IMG/VR virus record: IMGVR_UViG_3300003690_000073
Coordinates: 1 to 42,700 of that record
Length of the DNA stretch: 42,700 nucleotides
Strand: one strand, 5' to 3'
DNA from: a virus
Position numbers and translations under genes: made by a program. Below, one piece after another: positions 841-4,736 of the stretch. The notes under the pieces were generated by a model that worked only from the letters and a program-made list of their open reading frames with translations, made no database searches and was not told where the DNA came from. Each line of letters begins with the position of its first letter. Position 1 is the first letter of the stretch.

Positions 841-1663
841 AGAACGTTTCAAAGCAAATAACGTAGATTCAACCCCCCCTCCCTTAGAAGAAACAAAAAC
901 TTTACACTTCGTAACACCAACAGATTTTGTTGAATTACCTTCGAAGGGACAATACTATCAAGAAAGTCACCCCCTATACGGTGAAGAGCATTTAGAAATT
1001 CGACAAATGACTGCTAAAGATGAAGACATTTTAACTTCAGAAACACTTTTGAAAAAAGGCATTGCAATTGAAAGATTGATCCAAAATTTAATAGTTGATA
1101 AAAATATTAGAACAGAAGACCTTTTGGTTGGCGATAAAAATGCAATACTAATTACTGCAAGAATATCTGCCTATGGGCCACTTTATGAAACGAAGATCCA
1201 ATGCCCTTTCTGCAATCATTATTCAAATTATGAATTTGATTTACGAGAAGTAAAAGTCCAACACAGTGAAAAAGATATTGAAAGCGTTTCATCAACAGAA
1301 AATAAAACATTTCTTATTGCGCTACCAAATAGCAAAGCACAAGTCGAAGTGAGGCTTTTAATTGGTGTGGACGAGCAAAAATTTATATTTATGATACAAC
1401 AGCGTAAAAAACACAACCTTGAACAAACAACAGTGACAGACCAAATGAAAATGTTTACCGTAGCAGTAAATGGAATTGCCGACCCGACCCAGGTTTCAAA
1501 TTTTATCGACAGCATGCCAGCAAAAGATTCAAGACATCTTAGAAATACATATGCAAAGATTAATCCTACCGTAGATTTAACACAATATTTTGCATGCACA
1601 TACTGCAATTCAGAAACAAAATTGGAGATCCCGCTTACAGCGGACTTTTTTTGGCCTAAGTAA
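827..1663 (+). CDS. gp26-like protein, probable tail assembly chaperone (G part)
   Basis: This 278-residue protein resembles the T4 gp26 baseplate family: FVELPSKGQYY near the N-terminus, a helical EIRQMTAKDEDIL block and two Cys-X2-Cys pairs, CPFC (about residue 126) and CTYC (about residue 257), which could bind zinc. It sits between the tail tube and tape measure genes, exactly where contractile and siphoviral phages keep their tail assembly chaperone, which wraps the tape measure during tube polymerisation. Its last codons run over seven T bases, and a second open frame without a convincing start continues from there (see 1590-1832). It overlaps the tube gene by 14 bases. The gp26 similarity is recognised by eye; the chaperone role is inferred from position. 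Confidence 0.7.
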   Translation: MRNNEERFKANNVDSTPPPLEETKTLHFVTPTDFVELPSKGQYYQESHPLYGEEHLEIRQMTAKDEDILTSETLLKKGIAIERLIQNLIVDKNIRTEDLLVGDKNAILITARISAYGPLYETKIQCPFCNHYSNYEFDLREVKVQHSEKDIESVSSTENKTFLIALPNSKAQVEVRLLIGVDEQKFIFMIQQRKKHNLEQTTVTDQMKMFTVAVNGIADPTQVSNFIDSMPAKDSRHLRNTYAKINPTVDLTQYFACTYCNSETKLEIPLTADFFWPK

Positions 1664-1832
1664 AGAATACATAAAAGATGTATATGAGCAATTCTTTTTA
1701 TTAAAATATCATGGCGGCTGGAGTCTTTTTGAAGCCTATAATCTACCTGTTGGATTAAGAAACTGGTTTATAAAAAGACTTACAAAGCAATTTGAACAAG
1801 AAAAAGCAGATTATGATAATATAAAAAAATAA
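1590..1832 (+). CDS. Frameshift extension of tail assembly chaperone (gp51-like)
   Basis: This frame is open from before 1590 to TAA 1832 and overlaps the previous gene by 74 bases. The first start-type codon is TTG 1590, with no SD upstream and a different kind of residue composition before about 1647. The conserved-looking part, FGLSKEYIKDVYEQFFLLKY..GGWSLFEAYNLPVGLRNWF, starts exactly where the upstream frame meets the T7 run. The simplest reading is a +1 (or -2) ribosomal frameshift at 1646-1652 that adds about 60 residues to a minority of the 827-1663 product. The alternative is a free-standing small gp51-like baseplate protein. An intrinsic terminator follows. Confidence 0.6.
   Translation: MHAHTAIQKQNWRSRLQRTFFGLSKEYIKDVYEQFFLLKYHGGWSLFEAYNLPVGLRNWFIKRLTKQFEQEKADYDNIKK
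1646..1652 (+). promoter_or_regulatory. Candidate programmed frameshift site (T7 run)
   Basis: Seven T bases read in the zero frame as TTT TTT TGG, four codons before the TAA at 1661. A +1 slip of the P-site TTT onto the next TTT enters the downstream frame (GGC CTA AGT AAA). Perfect re-pairing is possible. The site lies in the gene before the tape measure, where such shifts are common. Confidence 0.55.
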
Positions 1833-2351: not shown

Positions 2352-4736
2352 ATGGCAGATGATCCAGCCGGTGGAGGAGGTTCTCCAGTTGATCCAAAAA
2401 TAATGGAAGCTCAAATCGCGGGCACCGAACAATATCGTGATTTGCTCTTTCAAATTAGCTCAATTGAAAGCCAACTCGCTCAAACTGAAGCTGAACGATT
2501 ACAATATGCTCAACAAGCAGTTCAAACATTCGATGCAGGACTCAAACAAACATTACAAATGGCCGAAGCGACCGGTCGCGTCCGCAACGATGAAGAAAGA
2601 AGAAATCTTGTTCTCAAAGAAGAAGTTGGTGAATTAAGAAAACAATTAAATCTCATAACCACCACGGACGCGACAAGAAAACGAAATCTAGAAAGTATCC
2701 GAAGACAACAAAAAGCCCTACAAAATGATATCGACAAAGCAATGGCTAGCGAGGGCAAAAAATCACAAAATGCCATAAACCTTCAGAATCAATTGAATTC
2801 TCTAAAATCACAAGAAGCGGAACTTCTTCGTGGTAATTTAAACTTAACTGAAGCGCAACAGGAAAGCTTGGTTAAAAGAATATCCGCAGAAATACGATAT
2901 AGGCAAGCAGCAGTAGAAACTTCCGCACAGACACAAAGTTCTCTAAGAATGTTGACTGGTCTAGGTAGCGATTGGCAAAATACTCTTTGGGGTGCTTTCT
3001 CTACGATGACAAAAGCATCGATACAATCCCAGGGTGCTATAAAGGGCTTGATTAGATCGGCAGATGTATTGGTTAACTCGTTAAATAATGCTGCTTCTAT
3101 ATCAAATATTGCTGGCTCTACAATAATGAAAATACAAGAAAAAACGGTTTATATGATTAATGAAATTGATCGTTCAGAAGTTTCATTACGCGCAGCAACT
3201 GGCGCATCACAAGAGTTTGCACGTGGTTTGAATGTTGCATTTAATGATGCGGCTATTAAGCGAATGGCCGGTACATATACTGAACTTTATCAACTACAAT
3301 CATCTTTATTTGGCCTATCAAAGGCATATTCAGAACAAACCGGCGCTGAAAGATTGGCATTAGATAGACTCGGCATGGCAGCTAATCGCGCTGGAATTGC
3401 TTATGATGACTTTGCTACAGTAGTTGATAAATCTGTCCGCATATTTGGTCAGAGTGCAACGAGAGCAATAAATCAGTTGTACAATACTGCAGTTTCAGTA
3501 GGTGAAAAACCAGCAGAAATTATTAAAGCATATATTAGCTCTTTGGACGTTTTATCTCAATACTCAGGCCCACAAGCAATTAGTGTTTTCCAACAATTGG
3601 TTTCTTGGCAGAAAGCAACAGGAATTGAAGCGCAGAAACTCCTTCATGTTGTTTCCCAGTTCGATACATTTGAAGGCGCTGCAACGTCAGTTTCTAGATT
3701 AAATACAATTTTAGGTGGTGCTTATTTTAACACACTTCAAATGCTTAAAGCCGATGAAGGCGAAAGAGTGAGATTACTCTATGAAGGATTTAAAGCAACT
3801 AATTTAAATTGGGATGCAATGGGCAGATATCACAAAAGAGCTTTAATGGTGGCGGCGGGCTTTAAAAGTCTATCAGTCGCTGCGGCCTTTTATAGAGGAG
3901 ATATGGAAAAAGTTACGGCATTGCAAGAAAAAGCTCAGCGCACAGCTAATGCACAACAAAGATTAATTGATATTGGGATACAACTAGTACCCATTGTTGC
4001 CCGACTAGCACGCGCCATGCAAGAATTTGGCACTTTTGCTGAAAAATTAATACCATATGTACGAGCATTTGCTGAAATTTTAGGCCAAATGAGCCCACTC
4101 ATGGCAATGGGCGTGCTAGCAGCATATAAGCTTTCTACTGCTTTTGCCGCACTTGCACTCAGAGCCGCCGCCGTAAAAATTGCCACGGCTGGTATCGGAG
4201 GGGGACTAGCAGCTATGGGCGGGGCCATTCTCGGTCTCGTGCCAATGTTAGGCGTTTTAGGTTATGCATTTTACTCCCTCCATCAAAAAGTCAGCGAAAA
4301 AAAATCTCCCCCATTTTGGCAAATTTTTGGAATTATGGCCACCGGGGTTCACAGCTTTACGGATGGCGCTAAAGATGCAATTGCTGCGGCAAGACAGTTG
4401 GGAAATACAATAGCAGCAATGCCAACGGAAAAAATGATTAAAGTTGCAGCAGTGACAAGACAAGTTGGCGCCTCTGCGGCCGCAGTATCAGGCGGCGTTA
4501 GCGCATCTCGCGCAGCCGCCGTTCAAGCTCAAAGTTCAGCCATAGCAGTTAATGTTGCTCGACAAAATGTTTTACCGGCTGGCGGCGGAGCAGGCCGACT
4601 TCCTCCCGGCGTACTAGTTACAGACTCTCTCTCCTTTAATATTGGAAGTGATATATCGATTGTCAAGAGAGTCGAAGATCTTGTAAATACTAAATTAAAA
4701 GCGCGCGAAATGGCTGCACGTTTAAGGAGCGTTTAA
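2352..4736 (+). CDS. Tail tape measure protein
   Basis: At 794 residues this is one of the longest proteins in the window. It is rich in helix and coiled-coil (Q/E/L/A-rich residues 20-190) and has a strongly hydrophobic stretch at about 590-655 (YKLSTAFAALALRAAAVKIA and AILGLVPMLGVLGYAFYSL) typical of the membrane-active segment of tape measure proteins. Such proteins set tail length and help DNA pass the host inner membrane. Its position after the tube and chaperone genes and before baseplate tube-cap genes supports the call. The glycine/alanine-rich C-terminal region (about 690-760) may be removed or flexible. The SD is AAGGA, with a rather long spacing to the ATG. Confidence 0.85.
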   Translation: MADDPAGGGGSPVDPKIMEAQIAGTEQYRDLLFQISSIESQLAQTEAERLQYAQQAVQTFDAGLKQTLQMAEATGRVRNDEERRNLVLKEEVGELRKQLNLITTTDATRKRNLESIRRQQKALQNDIDKAMASEGKKSQNAINLQNQLNSLKSQEAELLRGNLNLTEAQQESLVKRISAEIRYRQAAVETSAQTQSSLRMLTGLGSDWQNTLWGAFSTMTKASIQSQGAIKGLIRSADVLVNSLNNAASISNIAGSTIMKIQEKTVYMINEIDRSEVSLRAATGASQEFARGLNVAFNDAAIKRMAGTYTELYQLQSSLFGLSKAYSEQTGAERLALDRLGMAANRAGIAYDDFATVVDKSVRIFGQSATRAINQLYNTAVSVGEKPAEIIKAYISSLDVLSQYSGPQAISVFQQLVSWQKATGIEAQKLLHVVSQFDTFEGAATSVSRLNTILGGAYFNTLQMLKADEGERVRLLYEGFKATNLNWDAMGRYHKRALMVAAGFKSLSVAAAFYRGDMEKVTALQEKAQRTANAQQRLIDIGIQLVPIVARLARAMQEFGTFAEKLIPYVRAFAEILGQMSPLMAMGVLAAYKLSTAFAALALRAAAVKIATAGIGGGLAAMGGAILGLVPMLGVLGYAFYSLHQKVSEKKSPPFWQIFGIMATGVHSFTDGAKDAIAAARQLGNTIAAMPTEKMIKVAAVTRQVGASAAAVSGGVSASRAAAVQAQSSAIAVNVARQNVLPAGGGAGRLPPGVLVTDSLSFNIGSDISIVKRVEDLVNTKLKAREMAARLRSV

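Follow-up and report, generated by a model that had tools for sequence, protein, structure and literature searches.

Two tail-assembly helper proteins are very probably made from a single phage gene in the DNA analyzed here. This DNA, a 42.7 kb virus record and itself a fragment, is called the window below, a term that always means the whole stretch of 42,700 nucleotides. From comparison of its sequence with those of its relatives, we hold with high confidence that a T4-type phage with a contractile tail encodes its tail assembly chaperone at positions 827 to 1832, and that this locus is expressed through a programmed +1 ribosomal frameshift. Three features carry this reading: a slip site of the form YTT_T is conserved, the +1 frame leads in all homologs but one into the same three-helix domain, and that frame has no usable start of its own. 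Together, these imply that a programmed shift would deliver a short chaperone of 278 amino acids and a long one of 334. A +1 frameshift at the position of the tail assembly chaperones is strongly supported by this comparative evidence.

The locus and its neighbors

The gene read in the 0 frame (827-1663, + strand) encodes the putative short form, a gp26-like protein of the PF12322 family (TAC-N, 278 amino acids). Its 3' end reads GAC TTT TTT TGG CCT AAG TAA. The preliminary description had reported this ending, the seven T's at 1646-1652 and a +1 frame reaching to 1832, and the sequence is as it stated. The slip site TTT TTT TGG occupies 1646-1654 (+ strand); here, the P-site codon at 1649-1651 would re-pair one base forward on 1650-1652, skipping one T. 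The 0-frame stop codon, TAA at 1661-1663 (+ strand), follows four codons past the P-site codon. The +1 frame is open from 1581 to 1832, encoding FGLSKEYIKDVYEQFFLLKYHGGWSLFEAYNLPVGLRNWFIKRLTKQFEQEK, and the extension proper (1650-1832, + strand), a gp51-like TAC-C domain, contributes 59 amino acids beyond the shared Phe. The fused translation, join(827..1651,1653..1832) on the + strand, gives the long form of 334 amino acids.

Upstream lies the gene for a tail tube protein (328-840, + strand; phrog_4542 tail tube, E 1.7e-13), which overlaps the start of the chaperone gene. Downstream, an open reading frame of 137 amino acids (1922-2335), for which a family match was not found, separates the chaperone locus from the tape measure candidate (2352-4736, + strand, 794 amino acids). 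The latter is named from its position and length only, family profile searches having returned no hit for it. The locus therefore sits, as the preliminary description had remarked, at the classical place for a chaperone of the G/GT type, between tail tube and tape measure, where the tape measure is the one named by position. In phages immuto and LIS04, the annotated upstream neighbor is a tail completion or a tail tube protein, and the downstream one a tail tape measure. A direct DNA similarity search of the window against named phages gave zero matches.

Just past the stop of the +1 frame is a hairpin with a T run that resembles an intrinsic terminator (1850-1877, + strand; GCCGAGGACCTCCTCGGCTTTTTATTTT). 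The hairpin is strong, and terminator-like sequences stand at the corresponding place in 31 of 94 homologs.

The slip site and its conservation

Runs of seven T's are, of course, unremarkable per se; the + strand of the window holds nine of them, while TTTTTTTGG occurs on it a single time. The open length of the +1 frame was likewise not used alone as evidence. Past the 3' ends of the window's 50 open reading frames of at least 100 amino acids are 19 open stretches of at least 59 codons, mostly, in our reading, because a neighboring gene begins there.

Conservation is a different matter. A scan of viral contigs with the 0-frame protein delivered 80 relatives, all of which have TT[T/C] TTT TGG followed by the 0-frame stop, and in all of which the +1 frame goes on to encode a domain that follows the pattern GLSxEYMExVYEQFFLLKYHGGWSFxEAYNLPVGLRxWF. 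Two sets were used for comparison: a close family of 44 non-redundant close homologs, and a broader set of 99 non-redundant homologs (<85% nucleotide identity), widened with Microcystis phage Mel-JY01 and a metagenomic phage. The pattern by which the second batch was collected itself demanded such a slip site; it matched 96 of 98 loci, missing L164, which lies on a truncated contig, and L190, where the site is lost.

Throughout the broader set the P-site codon is YTT followed by T, and the 0-frame stop comes 4-7 codons past it (99 of 99 for both). The codons at -3, 0, +3 and +6 read TTT TTT TGG CCT in 85 homologs. Variants are CTT TTT TGG CCT and TTC TTT TGG CCT (three each), TTC TTT TGG TTT (two, L055 and L068), TTT TTT TGG TTT and TTT TTT TAC CCT (two each), and TTT TTT TGG GTT and TTC CTT TGG CCA (one each, the last in L195). 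The +1 relation to the C domain is kept in 98 of the 99, the exception being L195. At least 15 homologs have a stop in the +1 frame as close as 8 or 14 nt upstream of the P codon, so the shift must fall between that stop and the one of the 0 frame. Within the close family, synonymous conservation is among the highest in the gene at the two TTT codons, at GGC, the first codon read in the +1 frame, and at several codons immediately before the site, in figures computed without regard to phylogeny.

The preliminary description had proposed aligning relatives at this junction. The alignment bears out its expectation: the slip site and the +1 relation persist and a start codon does not. Such conservation is above chance, and the slip-site arrangement is, by this comparison, neither chance nor a sequencing error.

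Direction of the shift

A ribosome that slipped two bases back on the T run would enter the same frame as one that slipped one base forward, and would add one extra Phe (DFFFGL rather than DFFGL). The seven T's of the window and of most homologs permit such re-pairing in the P site. However, in the five of 99 homologs that have TTC TTT TGG, the Phe-tRNA would need to re-pair on UCU, which it cannot do, so that the +1 direction is favored; the CTT T found in immuto also fits +1. Of the two directions that the preliminary description had allowed, +1 stands, and -2 is judged quite improbable.

Start codons for the +1 frame

The +1 open reading frame might instead be a separate small gene, expressed as a stand-alone gp51-like protein through translational coupling or a weak start. 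An ATG is indeed present at some point of the +1 frame close to the site in 56 of 99 homologs, often within the conserved domain, and in L190, L195 and the cyanophages the domain does have an ATG of its own. But in 28 of the 99, the +1 frame lacks ATG, GTG and TTG alike as far as 7 codons beyond the slip. The window offers only TTG at 1590 before the conserved domain, and this lacks an SD; the earlier judgment that the frame has no convincing start is thus upheld. Further, the conserved residues FGL precede the position of the ATG, and a separate gene would have no need of a conserved slip tetranucleotide and a fixed frame. A conserved SD and start codon for the second frame in relatives, to which the preliminary description had pointed as the counter-evidence to seek, is not found in the main family. 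Independent initiation is given only a slim chance as an account of the window.

Two homologs form a natural control. In L190 (at about 2214) and L195 (at about 2205), the C domain lies in another frame and has its own ATG just past the 0-frame stop. In place of TTT TGG, the site reads TTC TTG TAT in L190 and TTC CTT TGG in L195. These two are, as their sequences read, a small side lineage that has lost the frameshift relation and has a separate start for the domain. A separate start for the C domain was seen only in them and, together with a -1 heptamer, in cyanophages.

Transcription could also slip on the T run, delivering mRNAs one U short that would be read in frame. Most members have seven T's, as this would want; the members with TTC TTT TGG have just four consecutive T's at the site, which argues against it, and a long homopolymer is not present in all members. 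Transcriptional slippage is accordingly very unlikely.

Elements upstream of the slip site

Just upstream of the slip site, the window has an SD-like element, GGAGAT (1624-1629, + strand), 19 nt before the P codon, and then a stem-loop, CCGC-TTACA-GCGG (1631-1643, + strand), immediately 5' of the T run, in which 1631-1634 pairs with 1640-1643.

In the close family, standard pairs fill 145 of 156 cells of the stem, compared with 43-46 when the stem is slid by 1-2 bases. The pair on the loop side is C-G in 20 sequences, U-A in 11 and U-G in 6, and the next is G-C, G-U, A-U or U-A. The last 24 nt have a minimum free energy of -6.7 kcal/mol, against about -1.7 kcal/mol for synonymous recodings. 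The SD-like element, GGAGAT in the window, is GGAGGT in nearly all close relatives; the close-family anti-SD energy is -9.86, against -4.31 +/- 0.48 for synonymous recodings. These statistics on the stem-loop and the SD-like element were computed without correction for phylogeny. As so measured, the stem is covarying, and both elements are under synonymous selection. Other groups of homologs also have selected SD-like tracts and upstream structure, at different distances. A conserved RNA structure 3' of the slip site was looked for among the homologs and not found.

These upstream elements may stimulate forward slipping. The SD spacings known for frameshifting are 3 nt, in prfB, and about 10 nt, in dnaX. 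Here, the distance is 19 nt from the P codon, and other distances are found elsewhere in the family, so that the arrangement is unlike either of these, a point that weighs against the frameshift reading. The SD-like element was also considered as a start signal for the +1 open reading frame and rejected, a start codon at a usable distance being absent in most members.

Identity of the two protein parts

The 0-frame protein matches PF12322 (T4_baseplate) with E 1.6e-14 and 54.6 bits, against a curated cut-off of 24.5, and phrog_150 (baseplate hub) with E 7e-17. AF2 models were predicted for the 0-frame protein and the +1 domain apart. That of the 0-frame protein has a pLDDT of 89, and its residues 21-116 find as their best PDB match the tail assembly chaperone of HK97 (2ob9), at a moderate Z of 5.8. 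Among 667 PDB chains, the top two were this chaperone and YqbN (Z 5.5), both under 8. By these profile matches, the 0-frame product is gp26-like.

The +1 domain is less easily placed. A family search with the +1 open reading frame alone did not find a credible hit, a sequence search of solved structures found nothing, and comparison of the C domain with PDB structures gave only low, uninformative Z scores. The AF2 model of the domain has three helices (pLDDT 91). In a Foldseek search with it (BFVD), the matches among named viral proteins included Gp51 of Prochlorococcus phage P-HM1 (probability 0.95, E 0.38) and the tail assembly chaperone of the Microbacterium phage BonaeVitae (probability 0.91, E 1). 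In hhalign, the domain aligned with gp51 tails plus cyanophage-type C domains at E 4e-6, and with T4-type tails alone at only E 0.0025. Set directly against T4 gp51 alone in a profile comparison, the fused protein gave a weak match, so that intermediate sequences are needed for the hhalign match. A profile of the +1 domain, searched against whole genomes, found one place each in Mel-JY01, immuto, LIS04, SP-15 and SagM, directly behind the gene of PF12322 type, and the same profile matched the annotated gp51 of cyanophage Sf-FS3 (E 0.024). The cyanophage gp51 fold and the profile matches make a case of moderate strength that the +1 domain is gp51-like.

The domain has a dN/dS of about 0.10 in comparison with L011, and of 0.10 to 0.17 with the nearest relatives that have moderate dS, saturated pairs being excluded from the argument. 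By this measure it is under purifying selection. That the +1 open reading frame is a mere remnant, with the short protein alone being made, is hardly credible given this dN/dS of about 0.1, the same domain and frame in 98 of 99 homologs, and a predicted fold at pLDDT 91.

Proposed mechanism

Under programmed +1 frameshifting, most ribosomes would read to the TAA at 1661, delivering the short gp26-like protein. When tRNA-Phe holds UUU (1649-1651) in the P site while the uncommon codon UGG waits, a fraction of the ribosomes would slip one base forward on UUUU, perhaps stimulated by the stem-loop and the SD-like element upstream. These would read the +1 frame to 1832, thereby adding the gp51-like three-helix domain. 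The ratio of short to long product is inferred. If the two products act as gpG and gpGT do in phage lambda, coating of the tape measure would fall to the short form and recruitment of tube subunits to the long one. Since the record is a 42.7 kb fragment, a separate gp51 gene may of course exist elsewhere in this phage.

A broader proposal can be made only tentatively. The 5' stem-loop with its SD-like purine tract might be a new class of +1 signal, where refolding of the RNA, or pairing with 16S rRNA, behind the ribosome pulls the mRNA and gives a forward slip on YUU_U. As a general rule, the tail chaperones of T4-type phages might also go back to a frameshift pair (shifting +1 here and -1 at T_TTT_TTC in cyanophages), replaced in the T4 group by duplication into gp26 and gp51.

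T4, cyanophages and other relatives

In T4, gp26 (208 amino acids) and gp51 (249 amino acids) are both PF12322 proteins, encoded back to back on opposite strands. The complete genomes of 12 phages were searched with PF12322 or with a profile built for this analysis; T4 alone has two genes of the family and the others one. T4 thus has a separate gene for each of its two forms, short and long, where the lineage of the window would use a single one. The preliminary description had suggested that the gp26/gp51 pair may be a frameshift pair; this holds in the lineage of the window, with its gp26-like 0-frame product and gp51-like +1 domain, but not in T4 itself, where the two are full paralogs on opposite strands.

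Named relatives display several arrangements. Rhodothermus phage RM378 and Mel-JY01 have TTT TTT TGG and Flavobacterium phage immuto has TTT CTT TGG, all with a +1 relation. In LIS04 (L005), SagM-GXN1 (L006) and SP-15 (L008), the C domain is in the +1 frame and the site is less clear; all three have NCC CGA close to the junction, and the shift might occur there rather than at TTT. In XacN1 (L007) and Atu_ph07 (L097), the C domain lies in the -1 frame at the end of the hub gene, after GCT TTT TTT ATT (T_TTT_TTT) and CAT TTT TTC GCA (T_TTT_TTC), respectively, implying that PF12322 has undergone a switch in the direction of its shift. At the gp26/gp51 junction of the cyanophage type (L203, L206-L285), an in-frame nnT TTT TTC ends gp26 in 80 of 80 loci (21 non-redundant), and gp51 lies in the -1 frame and also has a conserved ATG, 2 nt past the stop. 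Because of that ATG, a -1 fusion of gp26 and gp51 is possible and not needed; cyanophages may possibly use a -1 frameshift besides making gp51 separately.

Frameshifted tail chaperones are already known, including a very likely +1 case. As far as the literature was searched, what is new is that the gp26/gp51 family has a +1 shift, how broadly this occurs, and that a conserved stem-loop precedes the slip site. With a large environmental group that has the same protein family and a +1 frameshift, the T4 exception becomes part of a testable evolutionary series: one frameshifted gene, a separate gene, and duplicated genes. Recoding by a +1 signal with an upstream stem-loop is poorly understood, and for this the group also offers a large body of natural sequence data. 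In annotation, the gp51-like part is missed or entered as a separate gene. Thus, the +1 domain of Mel-JY01 (L002, 3761-3997) is publicly annotated as a separate overlapping hypothetical gene, and RM378 (L098, 3201-3377) has a separate hypothetical gene in a frame consistent with a +1 extension.

Comparison with known frameshift systems

Phage lambda gpG/gpGT and the G-T type of tail assembly chaperones comprise a short product and a frameshifted long product (PMC5009743). The window resembles these in its location between tail tube and tape measure, in its conserved shift site near the 3' end of the gene with a C-terminal domain in the shifted frame, and in short and long products that would share an N-terminus. 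Unlike lambda, where the shift is -1, the window would shift +1 at UUU_U with UGG in the A site, has a protein of the PF12322 family, and carries a conserved 5' stem-loop.

T4 has been named as the exception to the rule that tail assembly chaperones are frameshifted (PMC5009743); its gp26 and gp51 are described as "hub assembly chaperones" (PMC3004832). The protein family is the same, the short form of the window corresponding to gp26 and the extra C domain to a gp51-type tail; T4, however, has two paralogous genes on opposite strands, and the window a single gene that would shift +1. In 2022, to go by the title, Vladimirov et al. reportedly proposed a different mechanism for T4-like phages.

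Programmed +1 frameshifting in phage tail genes has precedent in Listeria phage PSA, which shifts at a proline codon (CCC_U) in a structural protein gene, and in the halophilic myovirus HSTV-2, where the chaperone gene's counterpart very likely shifts (PMC5009743). Unlike PSA, the window would slip at UUU_U in a chaperone gene. For the chaperones of the Vandenendeviridae and Andersonviridae, a -1 frameshift at GTTTTT was recently proposed (PMC12846349). These are also myovirus chaperones with a poly-T motif, argued for by the same comparative reasoning; the direction differs, and the proteins belong to another lineage.

The bacterial prfB (RF2) gene shifts +1 at CUU_UGA, with an SD 3 nt upstream. 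As in prfB, a P-site YUU would slip onto UUU, and there is an internal SD-like element. Unlike prfB, with its stop codon UGA, the A site holds a sense codon, UGG (UAC in two homologs), and the SD-like element lies 19 nt off, with a stem-loop between.
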